Part shown: positions 25,092 to 38,964 of the stretch, piece by piece
Layout of the letters: each line of letters opens with the position of its first letter
How positions within the stretch are numbered: the stretch's first letter is position 1
DNA from: Chryseobacterium wanjuense
Lineage (GTDB): Bacteria; Bacteroidota; Bacteroidia; Flavobacteriales; Weeksellaceae
Assembly (NCBI RefSeq): GCF_900111495.1
Contig: NZ_FOIU01000001.1
Coordinates: forward strand, 1,116,001-1,180,000
Length of the DNA stretch: 64,000 nt
Reading direction: 5' to 3'
Notes under the pieces: generated by a model
What the model was told of the DNA's origin: nothing
The model's input: only the letters and a program-made list of their open reading frames with translations
Databases searched by the model: none
Program-made: the position numbers and the translations under genes

Positions 25092-25106
25092 CTAGCCCCG
25101 ATTGGA
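25092..25106. repeat. Left attachment site (attL core)
   Basis: CTAGCCCCGATTGGA, identical to the right copy. On this side the core lies within CGCTAG-11 bases-CTAGCG, an inverted repeat typical of recombinase core-binding sites. Confidence 0.7.
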
Positions 25107-25216: not shown

Positions 25217-25233
25217 TTAATTCGGGAGTAAAT
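25217..25233 (+). repeat. Candidate integrase arm site, left
   Basis: TTAATTCGGGAGTAAAT is repeated with one change at 38811-38827 near the right end, in the same orientation. It overlaps the region where the -33 element of the integrase promoter would be. Three ATTGAAT-like units at about 11-base spacing lie just before it. Confidence 0.5.
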
Positions 25234-25277: not shown

Positions 25278-26591
25278 ATGGCAAATATAGAATTTGGAGT
25301 TTATAGTAAAAAAGTTCCTGTGAATCTGAATATACGATTTTATCACAACAAAATCGATATTAATGCAAAAACGAACATCTTTATTTTTGATTCGGATTTT
25401 AAATTCAAGAAAATATCAAAAGGAAAAAAGAGTTCCAGAAGTGTTGATATTGTCAATGCAGATGTCAGAGAAAAAACGGATAAGCTCAAAAGAAACGTTT
25501 TTGACCGATTTATCGAAGATTTTCCTAAAGGCAATAAGATTGATTCTGATTGGCTAATCAAAATCATTAACGACTTCCATGAAAGACCAGAAGGAGAAGA
25601 CGACCCGAGATATTATTTTTATCCGTTTGCCAAACAGTTTATCAAAGAATCAGAAACTAAAATCAATCCTAGAACAGGTACTTTGCTAGACCACAAAACC
25701 ATCACGAGACATTATTATACGCTCGGACTTATCAATGATTTTCAGGACTATTTAGGTCAAAAACTGAGAATCACAGATATTGGTTTAGATTTTCATAACA
25801 AGTTTATCTATTATATGAAAGAAGTATGTACTTCTTATAGCAATACTACGATTGATAAGCAGTTGACAACCGTCAAACAGTATATCAGAGAAGCTGAGCA
25901 GAAAGGATACAAAATTAATCCTGAAATCAAAAGCAGAAACTTTACCATAAAAAAAGATGAAACGATTGATACTTACCTGAATGAAGAAGAAATAGACCTT
26001 ATTTTTAACTATGACCTTTCGGGCAATGAGGAATTGAACGAAGTTAGAGATTTATTTATTACAGGGCTGTGGACGGGACTCAGAATCTCGGATTTGAAGC
26101 GAATTAACAGTTTTGATATTTCCAATAACAGAATTAAGATTGTGGAAACGGAGAAAACAGGCAGTTTTGTCGAAATTCCGATACATCCGCATTTAAAGCA
26201 GATTATCGAGAAAAGAGAGGGTGTTTTGCCGAAAGTTACTCAACACAAGTTTAATGAAGATGTAAAGGTACTGTGCGAATTAGTGGGAATTACGGAAGTT
26301 ATTTTGGGTGGTTTAAAGAATCCTGAAACCAACCGAAAAGAAAAAGGATATTATCCAAAATTCAAACTCATCTCTTCTCACACCTGCCGTAGGTCTTTTG
26401 TATCGAATCATTATGGAAAACTGGACGATAAAACGGTTATGGCGATTACAGGACACAAATCGCATAGTACATTCTTAGATTATGTCAAAACGTCCAAAAG
26501 AGAACACGCTGAAAAGCTCGAAAAGTATTGGACGGAACAGGAAGAAACCAAAAAAGCAAAAAGAACTCAGGTAAAACCGAAGAAAAAATAA
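25278..26591 (+). CDS. Tyrosine recombinase (integrase) of the island
   Basis: A 437-residue tyrosine recombinase with the Bacteroidota layout: an arm-binding beta domain (residues about 1-100), a SAM-like core-binding domain (about 115-220) and a catalytic domain. Catalytic residues are visible as the Arg in TGLRISDL near 269, HTCRR, GHKSHST and the Tyr in FLDYVKT. It sits 170 bases inside the left att core, pointing into the element, and should catalyse integration and excision at the 15-bp core. The C terminus is Lys-rich. Confidence 0.93.
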   Translation: MANIEFGVYSKKVPVNLNIRFYHNKIDINAKTNIFIFDSDFKFKKISKGKKSSRSVDIVNADVREKTDKLKRNVFDRFIEDFPKGNKIDSDWLIKIINDFHERPEGEDDPRYYFYPFAKQFIKESETKINPRTGTLLDHKTITRHYYTLGLINDFQDYLGQKLRITDIGLDFHNKFIYYMKEVCTSYSNTTIDKQLTTVKQYIREAEQKGYKINPEIKSRNFTIKKDETIDTYLNEEEIDLIFNYDLSGNEELNEVRDLFITGLWTGLRISDLKRINSFDISNNRIKIVETEKTGSFVEIPIHPHLKQIIEKREGVLPKVTQHKFNEDVKVLCELVGITEVILGGLKNPETNRKEKGYYPKFKLISSHTCRRSFVSNHYGKLDDKTVMAITGHKSHSTFLDYVKTSKREHAEKLEKYWTEQEETKKAKRTQVKPKKK

Positions 26592-27214
26592 CATTTGGCA
26601 CAGTATTTGAATTCGATTTGAGAGTTTTAAATCTGAAAAATAAAATATATCACTTAGTAGTGATTAATGTGTAAGTAAGAGGAGAAACGAGCGAAAAAGT
26701 TCTTTAAGGTTATTTCAAGTATGTGATATTAGAAACACTAATTATCAAAACAAGTCCAACTCATGGAACGACCACGCCAACGCTTTAAAACCGTAAACAG
26801 TGGGGGGATGGCAGAAACATTTTGTTTCATGTGGGATAATTATGTCTTGTAATGTCAAAAAGTCGGTAAATTGAGGATTAGGCTTTCCTTGCAGAAAAAA
26901 GCACCGCAACGAATATTTTTCAATGCGGATAATCCCGACCGAACTAAATCATACTTACAAAAAGTCCTCATTGGTGCGACCCTACCGAGCAGATGCTAAA
27001 TATTGGGAGGGGCAGGAATTTATTCAGGGGGATAATTATGTCTAATCAGGAAATAATCAACATTTTTAATATAAAAAATCTTAAAGGCTTCGGCTTGGGG
27101 ATGCACCCGTATAAAACGTATTCAGTAGGAAACTGAAAAATATCTATTTTCAAACTCAGGAGGATAAATATATCCGAATAACAAAATTTTAATAATTATT
27201 ATAACTAACATATA
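26592..27214 (+). other. Long non-coding stretch with repeats and clustered hairpins
   Basis: This 623-base stretch has no convincing gene. It contains a 15-bp direct repeat, GGGATAATTATGTCT, at 26833-26847 and 27029-27043. Each copy falls at the end of a tiny reading frame (26763-26852, 29 codons; 26923-27045, 40 codons), so both end in DNYV-like residues. No strong ribosome binding site precedes either. A GAAAC-ATTTT-GTTTC hairpin lies near 26815. The last 130 bases hold a cluster of hairpins described separately. Confidence 0.5.
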
Positions 27215-27245
27215 GACTCAACCTTAACGGTTGGGTCTTTTTTTA
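27090..27245 (+). ncRNA. Candidate structured RNA ending at tandem terminators
   Basis: Within 90 bases there are four short hairpins: GGG/CCC (27098-27108), CGT/ACG (27108-27118), CAGT/ACTG (27123-27135) and GGATA/TATCC (27162-27175). A rho-independent terminator follows at 27215-27245. No reading frame covers it. The promoter and the true 5' end are not identified, so the RNA could be much longer. Confidence 0.4.
27215..27245 (+). terminator. First of two tandem terminators upstream of the HTH gene
   Basis: GACTCAACC at 27215-27223 pairs with GGTTGGGTC at 27229-27237 (one G:U), followed by seven or more T. Confidence 0.85.
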
Positions 27246-27263
27246 TATCTAAACATCAACGAG

Positions 27264-27290
27264 ACTGTCCAAAAAGGGCAGTTTTTTTTT
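27264..27290 (+). terminator. Second tandem terminator upstream of the HTH gene
   Basis: ACTGTCC at 27264-27270 pairs with GGGCAGT at 27276-27282, followed by eight T. Confidence 0.8.
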
Positions 27291-27347
27291 ATGTCTGTAT
27301 GTCAGGTAATTGAACAGATAAATTAACAATATAACAAACAATAAATT

Positions 27348-27650
27348 ATGAGTAATAACAGTAACAACGGTAGTAATAGCACATTACTAGTCCAAATGAC
27401 AAAAGAAGAACTAATCCGAGATTTTGAGCAGGTAGTTCGTAAAGTAGTCAATCAAATGCAGGTTGAACAGCAAGCATTGAAGAATGAGAAACTGACTTAT
27501 ACCCGTGATGAAACTGCTGAAATTTTAAATGTTAGCTTAACAACGCTTCATAACTGGAATAAGCAGGGAGTTTTTAAGCCTTCTGCAAAGGTCGGTAAAA
27601 AAGTGTACTATTCTAAAAATGATATTCAAGCAAAACTAAAGATTAATTAA
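27348..27650 (+). CDS. Excisionase-like helix-turn-helix protein
   Basis: A 100-residue DNA-binding protein. After a Asn/Ser-rich start and a short helix, the C-terminal half is a MerR-like winged HTH of the excisionase type: YTRDETAEILNVSLTTLHNW followed by the wing KVGKKVYYSKNDIQ. Such proteins direct excision of integrated elements or regulate them. It lies after two terminators and before the polymerase-like gene, consistent with a replication/excision module. Confidence 0.85.
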   Translation: MSNNSNNGSNSTLLVQMTKEELIRDFEQVVRKVVNQMQVEQQALKNEKLTYTRDETAEILNVSLTTLHNWNKQGVFKPSAKVGKKVYYSKNDIQAKLKIN

Positions 27651-27871
27651 AATAATTTTATCATTTTGGGGTTGGCTTAAATCTTTTTACTCTCACAAAC
27701 TGGAGAGCAGAATCTTTTTACTACTACATCGCATCTCTCTGCGTACGCATACTTTAAAAGCCTATAAACGCCCGAAAAATCAACTAAAACAATTCGTATA
27801 ACAAAATCCTGAATGCATTGCAAAAAAGCCATGTACAGCCCTTGCTATGCCTTTTTTTAAACAACATTATT

Positions 27872-29260
27872 ATGAACAAATATTATATCTTAGTACCAAA
27901 AAGCCTGAATCTTGAACAAAGATTGTCTAAATTTCCTCCTGATTTTGAACTGAGCCGAGATTATTGTCATTATTTTATCTCTGAATTGATAAAGCAGGTT
28001 TCTAATCAAAATAATTCTGACGAATTTAAAGATTTCAAAACTGCAATATCTCATTTTATCTCAAGATGCGCAGGAATTAATCAATCTATTTATAGAAATT
28101 CAAAACTGCACATAGATTATCTTTATCAGAACTTCGGAGGTGAAGGGAGGGTGTTGTGGAAAAATAATTACAAACCTGGCAGCTGTTATTCGTACTATTT
28201 GCCCAGACACTTTTGGGGAGATGGTGAGCTGGAACTGATTTGTATAAGTGAAAAAACTTTGGTTGATAAGGTTAAAAGGCTTAACAAACCTCAGATTGAT
28301 AATACTGTCAGAAAACATCTTAACTTTACATTGCAGTACTTTGATACTAATCGTATCGAATTAGATGCAGAATCAGCTTTAAATGAACTGTATCAAGACT
28401 ATGGGCGGACAGGAGATTATGCGAAATACTTGAAAAATGCAGTCATGATAATGAATCTTAAAAATGAGGGATATAACTTTCATTACAATCCTGAAACGGA
28501 CGGGAGGTTACATACAGCATTATCACAGTTTCCTAAGATAGGTCGAAAATATCTAAAATATGACGGGGAACACATAGCCGAAGTCGATTTATCATCTTCA
28601 GTACCTTTTTTCCTGTCTTATTTACTTTCACTACCTACATCTAGTAAATCCGCCACACTATCCGTACAGTTACCATACAGTGAAAACATATTATACCATT
28701 ATATGCTAGTAGAATCTTTGGTAAGTCCCTCTGTCAGGGAGATAGCGGATTTCAGGCAACTTGTCCTAAATAACAAACTTTATGGGGAGTTTATGATAAG
28801 TTTTACAGGCTTACAAAACTTTGATTTTGGTTTTAAAAATATGTTTGGAAGAGCATTTGACGGTGATGAGGAAGAGTTAAGAAAGTATACTAAAAAAAGA
28901 TTCTTATCGATGCTCTTTGCTAGTCCTGGCGAATACATGCAGGAACAAGCTGTATTTTATCGTAAATTCCCGACGATACACCAACTTATCAAAAAATTTA
29001 AACAGTCGAAATTTCGGGGTGTTCCAAGGTCTGAAAGGCACAAAAGGTTTTCACATTTATTGTTTCAGTTAGAATCTCATTTTATGCTGAATATTATTGC
29101 ACGGGAAATAAACAACAGATTTAGAAGAACGATACCATTTTTTACACTTCATGATTGTTTAATGGTCAGAGAATCTGATTTAGAACAAGTTTATGAATTG
29201 ATGCATGAAATATTTGTCCGTGAGATTGGGTATGCTCCAAATATGATTAAAAAGGTTTGA
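27872..29260 (+). CDS. Divergent family-A polymerase-like protein
   Basis: A 462-residue protein of no named family. The C-terminal half carries motifs in the order and spacing of family-A (Pol I/T7-like) polymerases. A motif A-like AEVDLSSSVPFFLSYLL has Asp239. A motif B-like KKRFLSMLFASPG near 341 is followed by FYRKFPTIHQLIKKF. QLESHFMLNIIAREI and a motif C-like TLHDCLMV (His427-Asp428) complete the series. No 3'-5' exonuclease is seen; the N-terminal 200 residues are unassigned. The frame could start 18 codons earlier at 27818, but the ATG at 27872 fits better (MNKYYILVPK). Replication of the element is the likeliest role (inference). Confidence 0.6.
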   Translation: MNKYYILVPKSLNLEQRLSKFPPDFELSRDYCHYFISELIKQVSNQNNSDEFKDFKTAISHFISRCAGINQSIYRNSKLHIDYLYQNFGGEGRVLWKNNYKPGSCYSYYLPRHFWGDGELELICISEKTLVDKVKRLNKPQIDNTVRKHLNFTLQYFDTNRIELDAESALNELYQDYGRTGDYAKYLKNAVMIMNLKNEGYNFHYNPETDGRLHTALSQFPKIGRKYLKYDGEHIAEVDLSSSVPFFLSYLLSLPTSSKSATLSVQLPYSENILYHYMLVESLVSPSVREIADFRQLVLNNKLYGEFMISFTGLQNFDFGFKNMFGRAFDGDEEELRKYTKKRFLSMLFASPGEYMQEQAVFYRKFPTIHQLIKKFKQSKFRGVPRSERHKRFSHLLFQLESHFMLNIIAREINNRFRRTIPFFTLHDCLMVRESDLEQVYELMHEIFVREIGYAPNMIKKV

Positions 29261-29568: not shown

Positions 29569-30768
29569 ATGAAAAACACACTTTTTACATTAGTAGCTAT
29601 CACTTTTTCAAGTTTAGCTTATTCACAAATCGGTATTAATACCCCAAATCCGCAAGGGGTTTTTCATATTGACGGAGCCAAGGATAATCCTGTAACAGGA
29701 GTTCCCAGTGCAACCCAACAAGCGAATGACATTACGGTGCTTAATTCAGGTTTTGTGGGTATAGGTACTACATTACCTAAACAAAAATTACACATTACTG
29801 AACTCAATACTACGAGTGGAATACTTAATAGTTTTGTTTCAGGAATAGCATTAACAGGAATTGGGTATGGTTTTGACGGTAGCGGACCAGGTTTTTATCT
29901 TGAGAATACGAATGCCCCAGTCGGACAAAGATTATTAAAACTTAATTATTCTCTAAATTCAACTGAACCTGTTTTAAATTTTCAAGGAGTAAGTGATGAT
30001 GCTGGAAGTGTTGGAGCTCAAATGTTGTCTATAACACGTTCTGGAAAATTGGGGATAAATTCCGTAAATAACCCCCAAAATAATCTTACCGTAAATGGTA
30101 ATGCTTCAGTAGGTAATGCTTATACCAATGTTGTTGCACCTATAAATGGGGCAGTTATACAGGGAAATGTAGGAATAGGAACAGCCGCCCCCAACAGCAA
30201 GCTTGATTTGGGAACTTCTTTAGGAACTAACGAGACTGATTTTGCAGGAAAAAAACTTGCAGTTTATAATAATGCTGGAGGCACCGATTTTTATGGATTA
30301 GGAATCAGTTCAGGACTTCTTCAGTTTCACGCAGCTTCTACTGCTGCGGAAGCGCCGAGTATGGTTCTTACAAGTGGCGGAAATGTCGGCATAGGTACAA
30401 ACTCCCCGTCACAAAAGCTACATGTAATTGGAAATATTCTTGCATCAGGTACAATTACTCCTTCCGATATAAGGATTAAAAAAGATATTACTGATAATGT
30501 CTATGGTTTAAAACAAATTCTAACCCTAAGAACTATTAATTATAAATATAAAAATGAAGAATTGGGTAAAGATAAAAAAATAGGATTTATTGCTCAAGAA
30601 GTAAAAGCTACAATGCCTGAACTCATAATTACTGCAAATGATGAGATGAACACACTCGGAGTTAATTATGCTGAAATTACAGTAGTCCTTACAAAAGCTA
30701 TACAGGAACAGCAAAAAGAAATAGAATTTTTAAAAAAAGAGATAGAAATTTTAAAAAAAGCTAAATAA
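29569..30768 (+). CDS. Exported fibre-like protein with S74 chaperone end
   Basis: A 399-residue secreted protein with a signal peptide ending near AYSQ. Its N-terminal block reads IGINTPNPQGVFHIDGAKD, followed by several GNVGIGT-type beta repeats as in tail-fibre-like stalks. The C terminus is an intramolecular chaperone domain of peptidase family S74: SDIRIKKDIT with the catalytic Ser, then IGFIAQEVKATMPEL and a coiled coil. S74 domains trimerise fibres and cut themselves off. A paralog with the same start but a different end is at 32747. Confidence 0.85.
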   Translation: MKNTLFTLVAITFSSLAYSQIGINTPNPQGVFHIDGAKDNPVTGVPSATQQANDITVLNSGFVGIGTTLPKQKLHITELNTTSGILNSFVSGIALTGIGYGFDGSGPGFYLENTNAPVGQRLLKLNYSLNSTEPVLNFQGVSDDAGSVGAQMLSITRSGKLGINSVNNPQNNLTVNGNASVGNAYTNVVAPINGAVIQGNVGIGTAAPNSKLDLGTSLGTNETDFAGKKLAVYNNAGGTDFYGLGISSGLLQFHAASTAAEAPSMVLTSGGNVGIGTNSPSQKLHVIGNILASGTITPSDIRIKKDITDNVYGLKQILTLRTINYKYKNEELGKDKKIGFIAQEVKATMPELIITANDEMNTLGVNYAEITVVLTKAIQEQQKEIEFLKKEIEILKKAK

Positions 30769-32746: not shown

Positions 32747-33754
32747 ATGAAAAAATATTTTATTACACTATTAGCAATGCTTTTATCAAACACTGCTTTT
32801 TCTCAAGTGGGAATTTATACACCTAATCCGCAAGGTATTTTGCACATAGATGGGGCAAAAGATAATCCTATAATGGCTATTCCTAATGGAATACAAGCTG
32901 CAAATGATGTTGTGATTACTAGTACGGGGAATGTAGGAATTGGAACAATAAATCCAAATGGAGCTTTACAATTTAGGAATAATGAAAATAGCCGCAAAAT
33001 AGTTTTATATCAAAACGCTGTTAATAATGACCATCAGTTTTACGGTTTTGGTGTTAATTCAGGGATATTACGATATCAAGTAAATAGCATTGCAAGCAGT
33101 CATGTTTTCTATGCTGGTGCAAATGATACTACCTCTAATGAATTAATGCGGATAAAAGGTAATGGTAATGTAGGAATTGGAACTGACACTCCTAATTCAA
33201 AATTAGAATTAAATTCAGGAACAAGTAATGTTTCTGGACTTACCTTTACTAATCTAACCTCAGCAAGCCCTGTTTCTAATGGGGCAACACTCGGGGTGAA
33301 TGCAGAAGGAGAAGTAGTTACAGTTCAAGGTTCTTCTTTTACCCCTGCATTTGGGAGGCTTGTTTTATCTGGAGGAACTATAGCGATTCCTCTCACTGCT
33401 CCTAATTATAATATATTAAGTGTTGAAATAACTGAACCAGGTACTTATCAAATTAATTATACTGTGAGAGGTCAAATGTTAAACACAGGGGGAAATACTA
33501 GTGGGCAAGGATTTGCGACTGCGTTTCTTAGTACTGCTCCAACAGCAGGCACTATAATTTCAAATACAGAAATTTTAATATACAATGTTAGTACAGTACA
33601 AGATGGTGGGTCAGCTACAGGAATGTTTATTACAACTATAAATACTCCTACGACTTATTATCTAGGTGTTAGAGCTGGTGGTATTGGGGATGCACAAATA
33701 ATAAATAACAGTAATGGAAGGACTTCTATTTCTTATATTAAGCTTTCGCCTTAA
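32747..33754 (+). CDS. Exported protein with fibre-like start and C1q-like end
   Basis: A 335-residue secreted protein with a signal peptide ending near AFSQ. The N-terminal block [19 protein letters not shown] and the GNVGIGT repeats are shared with the gene at 29569. From about residue 200 it is replaced by a beta-sandwich-like domain ([40 protein letters not shown]) similar in pattern to C1q/BclA-type trimerising heads. The exchange of ends over a shared stalk suggests modular surface fibres. Confidence 0.75.
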
Positions 33755-37198: not shown

Positions 37199-38032
37199 GC
37201 CTTACCTGAAACACCTCCCTACAAACGCATAAAGCACTCAAATTTCGATTGTCTTTATTTTGTAGTGTAGTGTTTGAAAATACAAAAACAAGTTAAAAAA
37301 GCCTTATTTTAGTTTTTGTATAATAGCAAAGCAGCAAGCAGGCTCGTACGACGCCATAAGATAGTCAAATTTTGACTTTCTTCCTGTTTTGGTGTTATCC
37401 CTTCGTAAGGCATAATAACGGTTTAAATGAACTTTGTTTAACGTTTGGATTTAAATCTGAGTAACAGTTTGTGTATGATGTTTCGATATGCGCGTTTTAA
37501 ATAGCCAAATATCGACTTTCTTTCTGTTTTAGTATGTTGTAGGTTGTTTTGTGGATAAAATGCTCAAATTAACCTTATTTGAGGTTTTGTTATTATGTCT
37601 AGTTTTTTTTTGCGCGAAATCCGCTATCGCCCTGATACAAGATGTTTACAAAGATTCTACTAACATATAATGATATATAATAATACGGTATGTTGGTACG
37701 TTATCTTCCTTTGTACTCCCTGATAAGCTGGTAGTTAGTGAGATTAGAGAGTGTTTTTCGGGTTGGTGTGGGCAGAGCGCAGAATCTTTTTTCTGTGAGG
37801 CAGCTGTTAAAGATAACTACACTGCGATGTGTGGGTCTCTTTGGTTGGTTCGGGGCGTAGAAAAAATAGATTTTTAGCAGACATGATTTTTGTCAATATA
37901 TATATCTACCTATTTACCCCAAAATGAAAAAGTCTTCCAATGAAGGAAGACCGTAAAAACACAAATGATGAAAAAAAAAATTATTTTTCGTTAAGACAAA
38001 TATATCACAAATTTTCGACTTTTCAAAATATG
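37199..38032. other. Gene-free stretch near the right end of the island
   Basis: No credible gene. Two similar segments, with GACTTTCTTCCTGTTTTGGT near 37373 and GACTTTCTTTCTGTTTTAGT near 37514, lie about 140 bases apart. A minus-strand terminator hairpin is at 37932-37951. Other reading frames here are short and cross hairpins. Confidence 0.5.
37932..37951 (-). terminator. Minus-strand terminator in non-coding DNA
   Basis: GTCTTCC at 37932-37938 pairs with GGAAGAC at 37945-37951; the A-rich left flank gives a U tract for leftward transcripts. Confidence 0.65.
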
Positions 38033-38781: not shown

Positions 38782-38859
38782 AAATAGATTAAAATATTTA
38801 GAGTCGGGAATTAATTCGGGAGCAAATATTTTTAATCAACTATAAATAAATAGATTAAA
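38782..38859 (+). repeat. Candidate integrase arm sites, right
   Basis: AAATAGATTAAA occurs twice (38782-38793 and 38848-38859). Between them, TTAATTCGGGAGCAAAT at 38811-38827 repeats the left-end site with one change. They end 11 bases before the right core, as expected for recombinase arm-type sites. Confidence 0.5.
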
Positions 38860-38869
38860 TAATATTATA

Positions 38870-38884
38870 CTAGCCCCGATTGGA
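38870..38884. repeat. Right attachment site (attR core)
   Basis: CTAGCCCCGATTGGA, identical to the left copy. It is also the first part of the structured RNA that follows, suggesting that the RNA gene is the integration target. Confidence 0.7.
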
Positions 38885-38964
38885 ACGACATCCTTTTGGG
38901 TTGCGGTCGGAGTGAAGCGGAGACCGTAACCCAAAAGATACAGTGGAAAGCGGGAAAAAGCTCC
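38871..38964 (+). ncRNA. Flavo-1-like structured RNA
   Basis: The stretch starts TAGCCCCGATTGGAACGACA, continues ATCCTTTT, and ends GCGGGAAAAAGCTCC. Between them a 16-bp stem (CTTTTGGGTTGCGGTC with GACCGTAACCCAAAAG, one G:U) closes a GGAGTGAAGCG-type loop. Start, end and the long variable stem agree with what I recall of the Flavo-1 motif of flavobacteria. The name is from memory and unverified. The strand is given by the motif; no promoter is visible because the island cuts the upstream side. Confidence 0.5.

Follow-up and report, generated by a model that had tools for sequence, protein, structure and literature searches.

In the present study, a family-A-polymerase-like protein of 462 amino acids was recognised at positions 27872..29260 (+) of a 64,000-nucleotide stretch of the Chryseobacterium wanjuense genome (contig NZ_FOIU01000001.1, positions 1,116,001 to 1,180,000; the whole stretch is hereafter called the window), on the basis of its predicted fold, structure matches, invariant motifs and ratio of non-synonymous to synonymous substitution rates (dN/dS). 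The favoured reading is that this protein would probably initiate replication and make primers for a small element with a tyrosine integrase, its polymerase domain standing behind a likely winged-helix domain. The open reading frame (ORF), which a preliminary description of this DNA had placed correctly, begins with ATG at 27872 and runs to a stop codon ending at 29260. An in-frame TTG is present upstream, at 27818; the ATG is the supported start because a non-coding block conserved in 10 close elements reaches up to it. The dN/dS of 0.15-0.21 in six pairs indicates purifying selection; in a seventh pair, dS was saturated. The window protein has no match in Pfam (E up to 1), NCBIfam (E up to 1) or the sequences of the PDB (E up to 10), and it matches phrog_4756, a family of unknown function, at E 5.5e-4.

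Several findings characterise the protein and its setting. First, the motifs are conserved beyond chance. In an alignment of the window protein with 17 relatives from the related-genome search (A1, 18 sequences, collected without a motif pattern and with close duplicates and fragments excluded), the invariant columns are P9, R212, D239, P245, Y304, K341, F366, P367, K377, E401, P422, H427 and D428. R212, D239, Y304, K341, E401, H427 and D428 were again invariant in an alignment of 54 family members (A4), a set that is biased for H427-D428 and neighbouring residues because the genome scan used the pattern [IV]P[LFI]FT[LI]HD[SC]. On the + strand, these residues include R212 of GRLHT, the beta-hairpin arginine (28505..28507), D239 of DLSSSVPFFL, the motif A aspartate (28586..28588), the fingers O-helix motif R337-x-x-x-K341 (28880..28894), in which K341 is the first Lys of KKRFL and residue 337 is Arg in 46 and Lys in 7 of the 54 members, and H427-D428 of motif C (29150..29155). 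When the 54 members were aligned jointly with 20 cellular PolA sequences, all four MAFFT modes matched D239, R337/K341, the conserved FP of F366-P367 and H427-D428 to their PolA counterparts (HD of VHDE in the last case), among them the residues named R754, K758 and H881; R212 fell on GRVHT of PolA and not on GRLSS. The motif positions of the preliminary description, including QLE at 399-401, were confirmed. Neither of its two refuting conditions applied: the predicted fold contains a palm, and both aspartates stay invariant across homologs. The likeness to PolA that it had drawn from these motifs is upheld in order and alignment but not in every residue, since motif C reads HDC in the window protein and HDS in most relatives instead of HDE, and the QG position of PolA is occupied by Q-x-E.

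Second, the predicted structure shows a family-A palm and fingers, and all 50 structure matches listed were DNA polymerases. No RNA polymerase, reverse transcriptase or AEP primase was among these 50 matches, from which their exclusion does not follow. The polymerase fold is nearly certain as a prediction, and catalytic activity is likely from the invariant residues and the selection. The predicted fold recovers the palm of Pol A type proposed in the preliminary description, and the polymerase has no exonuclease, as had also been proposed. Two helices in the model (H166-180 and H183-197; residues 166-197, 28367..28462, +) lie in the thumb position and may act as a thumb. The N-terminal domain (residues 1-143, 27872..28300, +) is mixed helix-strand in the model and is predicted as a likely winged helix; its structure matches are weak, the best of them being double-strand-binding winged-helix proteins, and the protein matched no Rep family by sequence. 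Sequence profiles do not show the family-A relationship: hhalign comparison of A4, whole and as residues 195-462, with 20 Bacteroidota PolA gave Prob 0.07-0.5 and thus no link in a comparison of the kind that the preliminary description had proposed; PF00476 matched neither the window protein nor the 54 members; and hmmsearch of PolA with profile A4 returned E>0.9. Because the profile-to-profile comparison is negative, the homology to PolA rests on the predicted structure and the motif order.

The same features bear on another reading, in which the protein would be a single-subunit RNA polymerase of T7-like type, serving to transcribe the genes of the element and playing no part in replication. 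This is highly improbable. HDS or HDC in place of HDE in motif C and the loss of the steric-gate Glu in 54 of 54 members would suit such an enzyme, and PF00940 matched one of the 54 members at E 0.0067, which is not significant across 54 scans (the window protein gave no match at E<=1). However, the listed structure matches are all DNA polymerases, and no promoter-binding N-terminal domain of T7 RNA polymerase type was seen. The labels of UniRef point in both directions, one relative being named a DNA-directed RNA polymerase and another a family-A DNA polymerase, while NCBI gives "hypothetical". In addition, 462 amino acids is small for the class of T7-like RNA polymerases.

Third, the steric gate is altered throughout the family. 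In PolA, a Glu five residues past the motif-A Asp excludes ribonucleotides (E658 in the Bacillus enzyme, PMC7200780; the equivalent in E. coli Pol I is Glu710, PMC13228545). In the window protein, V244 (28601..28603, +) is aligned to the E of DYSQIELR, and of the 54 members, 44 have Gln at this position, 5 have Val, 5 have Ile and none has Glu. CcPol-MP of the SCC elements is a demonstrated primase, and CcPol retains the Glu (PMC7581432). Since the Glu is absent from the present family, ribonucleotide tolerance is predicted; the enzyme probably accepts ribonucleotides, and the primer may be RNA or mixed.

Fourth, the polymerase gene belongs to the core of an integrative element. A tyrosine integrase of 437 amino acids (25278..26591, +; PF00589 and PF13102 above cut-off, phrog_1 integrase E 5.6e-28) is encoded 1.3 kb upstream, and an HTH_17/excisionase-like protein of 100 amino acids (27348..27650, +; PF12728 E 5.8e-10, phrog_66 excisionase E 7.8e-8) ends 221 nt before the polymerase start, in agreement with the neighbours named in the preliminary description. 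Between the two genes lies a long non-coding stretch (26592..27347, +) that is partly conserved: blastn aligned pieces of it to L050/L021 and L048/L022 at 75-86% identity. Of 62 related loci fetched, some of them near copies or at contig ends, 60 had a readable frame (none in L045 and L104; truncated in L046 and L103), and a tyrosine integrase lies within 5 kb of the polymerase in 45 of these 60; homologs beside tyrosine recombinases, a search for which the preliminary description had suggested, were found in this way. From the 9 integrase matches in the 4.67 Mb of the own genome, we estimate that an integrase would occur by chance in about 2% of such stretches. Integrases were checked against Pfam in the window and L050, and the rest of the integrase cluster was assigned by BLAST linkage. 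An HTH_17 protein is a neighbour in 18 of the 60 loci, DUF3871 in 18 and AAA_24 in 14.

The ends of such elements could be located in four relatives. Among 26 loci with the integrase ahead on the same strand, five have an exact direct repeat of at least 14 bp around the pair and 21 have none within the stretches examined. One of the five repeats is 14 bp long; the other four are 32-98 bp, overlap a predicted tRNA gene and bound elements of 6.0, 7.0, 8.1 and 11.2 kb. Four relatives thus carry a tyrosine-integrase element with repeats at both ends, whereas the window has only a 15-bp repeat, CTAGCCCCGATTGGA, whose copies at 25092..25106 and 38870..38884 (both +) are the candidate left and right attachment cores. 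Allowing up to one mismatch, this 15-mer occurs at these two places only in the window, and none is expected from shuffles. The right copy lies inside a Flavo-1 RNA (RF01705, 65.8 bits; 38868-38961), and integration may target this RNA, which is repeat-like. The exact 15-mer was preferred as attachment core over a second repeat, TTAATTCGGGAG[TC]AAAT (25217-25233 and 38811-38827), which may mark a different junction if the island is composite. The flanking genes for M1 aminopeptidase and tatC, 14,186 bp apart in the window, are separated by 150-1410 bp in 22 of the 30 loci from the genus; for the remaining loci, a search of the 1.5 kb examined showed no aminopeptidase gene in that arrangement. 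In two species groups (L059, L061, L064 and L066, clusters c8-c11; L060, L063, L076 and L098, cluster c12), the elements have identical host genes as neighbours, suggesting insertion at fixed sites in the chromosome.

The integrases nearest to that of the window (L097, 43%; L056, 40%) sit in elements whose polymerases are distant, and the closest polymerases accompany other integrases, indicating that the two genes are exchanged independently. This persistence of the polymerase while the integrase type changes, together with its place in the integrase-proximal core of elements down to 6.0 kb, argues against its being cargo, a polymerase for defence or repair that the islands would carry along without needing it for their replication. 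Such a role, which we consider most unlikely, would fit the defence genes among the neighbours, e.g. a type I methyltransferase in 2 of the 93 neighbour proteins scanned, among the matches listed, and some polymerases are reported to act in phage defence (AbiA, PMC11077055). The scans covered 93 of 186 candidate neighbour proteins, with 25 of 170 and 25 of 77 families listed.

A conserved non-coding block (27732..27874, +; 48 invariant columns in a 10-sequence alignment) extends up to the start codon of the polymerase. These approximately 140 nt are kept in the 10 close elements even when the preceding gene differs, and were not visible by eye in two relatives of 53% identity. The block could be an origin, a leader or an operator. 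A structured RNA in the block was also considered and is unsupported, with a 6-pair helix containing one compensated pair, a z of -0.79 and Rfam scores far below gathering.

Herein, we propose the following scheme for the element. The integrase and the HTH/excisionase-like protein would excise the element between short repeats. The N-terminal domain of the polymerase would then bind the circle, in all likelihood at the conserved block that immediately precedes the polymerase gene, and the polymerase domain would begin a strand de novo at the bound site and may extend it; with the steric-gate Glu gone, ribonucleotides would probably be tolerated in this primer. The host helicase and replisome would complete replication, after which the element would reintegrate. 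In other lineages, AAA_24 and DUF3871, ParB-like or weakly DEAD-like neighbours may help. We infer, as the preliminary description did, that the polymerase might allow the element to replicate itself or to make its own primers.

More tentatively, the element might be a one-protein replicon, in which an initiator-like winged helix and a gate-less family-A palm allow a single chain to find the origin, make an RNA or mixed primer and extend it. If true, this would represent a primase class outside DnaG and AEP that needs neither a single-stranded-DNA-binding (SSB) partner nor its own helicase and occurs on numerous small elements with tyrosine integrases throughout Bacteroidota. In the neighbour clusters, examined without structure prediction, there is no conserved partner gene of SSB size (OB-fold). 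A rather unlikely alternative is that the protein is an ordinary primase-polymerase of the type called TV-Pol and no initiator: the N-terminal domain would only hold single-stranded template, as the SSB partner does for CcPol-MP, while the host or other genes choose the origin and unwind it. The polymerase core fits the published features of TV-Pols (PMC2579912), the resemblance of the N-terminal domain to initiators is weak, and other lineages encode beside the polymerase AAA_24 and DUF3871, an apparent ParB-like protein or a weakly DEAD-like protein (E 0.0026, below cut-off). However, the integrase, the HTH protein and the polymerase are the sole core genes seen in the window element, only one among 12 genomes carrying a close member has a D5_N helicase (PF08706), located far from the polymerase, and the best of the weak N-domain matches bind double strands. 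To our knowledge, nearly all known primases are of DnaG or AEP type. CcPol, a family-A enzyme proven to be a primase, depends on a second protein as partner and comes with a helicase (PMC10061031). With a compact family that has no evident partner or helicase and lacks the ribonucleotide-rejecting Glu, it would become directly testable how a polymerase that depends on primers is converted into a primase. Moreover, most of the named records examined annotate the gene as "hypothetical protein"; a likely function for this gene at the core of Bacteroidota islands makes such islands recognisable and delimitable.

The distribution of the family is patchy. Whole-protein searches gave matches in 17 of 99 related genomes and, within the genus, in 45 of 173 genomes at E<=1e-10, with up to four match rows per genome; a profile search found the family in 14 of 395 genomes sampled across the phylum. 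The pattern-based scan of named genomes gave 58 loci, of which, judged by title, 55 are from Bacteroidota, one from a Planctomycete (judged from the name Laterigemmans) and two from one Rickettsiales metagenome-assembled genome. Residues 195-462 alone matched 38 proteins, and the motif-A Asp and motif-C HD were kept in all five examined. In viral contigs, the single window protein gave no match, profile A1 gave 4 loci and profile A2 gave one that was already in the set. One plasmid record among 72,556 was matched, the same for four queries. Among 50,697 phage records, the window protein matched 5 at E<=1, including four with E<=5e-4, and the protein of L095 matched 2. A strong relative (L042:2524-3717; profile E 1.5e-52 among 214 ORFs) is present in the 735-kb uncultured phage record LR756501, and the family therefore extends to huge phages. 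On a Hymenobacter plasmid, the gene for a family member (profile E 1.9e-102 among 214 ORFs) lies near that for a "nucleotide-binding protein"; since this plasmid also has an annotated replication initiation protein, it does not prove plasmid replication by the polymerase.

Further observations concern single members and the island itself. One A4 member also matches NUMOD4 (E 2.7e-10) and HNH_3 (E 7e-10), so that its polymerase gene has probably received a homing endonuclease by insertion or fusion. The own genome carries a second, distant polymerase of the family (L026:5692-11500; G000:C1 near 505443-506873), followed by what, by eye, resemble a ParB-like protein and a serine recombinase. Near the right end of the island, a 46-residue piece at 37610-37747 (-) is 50% identical to polymerase residues 251-296, with one TAA inside the longer match; it would be a relic of another such element, and the site may therefore have been used more than once. 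The cargo of the island includes two surface-type proteins with similar starts (29569-30768, with a Peptidase_S74 chaperone domain at E 8.9e-13, and 32747-33754), beside small proteins with no Pfam match.

The element can be compared with several known systems. PiPolB, the polymerase of the pipolins, is much larger than the window polymerase. Pipolins are likewise integrative elements with their own polymerase, reported to prime (PMC7385651, PMC9710591), but piPolB belongs to family B and the present enzyme to family A. In contrast to the winged-helix plasmid initiators of RepE54 and RepA_N type, the present protein has no sequence match to Rep families and its likely winged helix is joined to a polymerase; among the titles and abstracts searched, most subscription journals lying outside the search, none described Bacteroidota elements that combine a winged helix and a family-A polymerase in one protein. 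The PolA-SSB pairs surveyed in Bacillota (PMC10061031) and CcPol (PMC7581432) resemble the present system in having a family-A catalytic domain on an integrative element, in CcPol without a working exonuclease, that is proposed to start replication of the element. However, CcPol keeps the equivalents of E710 and F762 (PMC7581432), whereas the Glu is absent here; an OB-fold partner and a helicase accompany CcPol (PMC10061031), and neither is evident here; and the PolA-SSB pairs mostly accompany large serine recombinases in Bacillota, in contrast to a tyrosine integrase in Bacteroidota. The closest likeness is to the TV-Pols, minimal family-A polymerases of transposons and viruses with members in Bacteroidetes, predicted as primase-polymerases by Iyer, Abhiman and Aravind (PMC2579912). 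The "new family" of the preliminary description is thus only partly correct: mobile elements with minimal polymerases of family A have been known as a kind since 2008 (PMC2579912), and CcPol-MP is a proven primase (PMC7581432). Like the TV-Pols, the present protein is, as predicted, a nuclease-less minimal family-A polymerase of mobile elements with a lambda-type integrase or resolvase, Bacteroidetes being among the hosts (PMC2579912), and it has the hairpin arginine R212, palm residues D239 and D428, R337/K341 and, in the model, a two-helix thumb. Profile A4 matched no ORF of Ma-LMM01, a phage reported with a TV-Pol element (best E 0.8), whose TV-Pol ORF was not pinpointed. TV-Pols have an all-helical N-terminal domain, in contrast to the mixed helix-strand, likely winged-helix domain predicted here; their contexts include a fused or nearby D5 helicase, whereas none is near the present polymerase; and they have a conserved Asp in the fingers, whereas columns 246-340 of the 54 members hold no invariant acidic residue, the best being 305 (Glu in 42 of 54) and 290 (Asp in 20 and Glu in 17 of 54), and thus no invariant Asp. 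Taken together, the predicted structure suggests that the present family shares the TV-Pol core and might be a variant of it, distinguished by its N-terminal domain, the absence of a D5 helicase, the apparent lack of an SSB partner and the lost steric gate.
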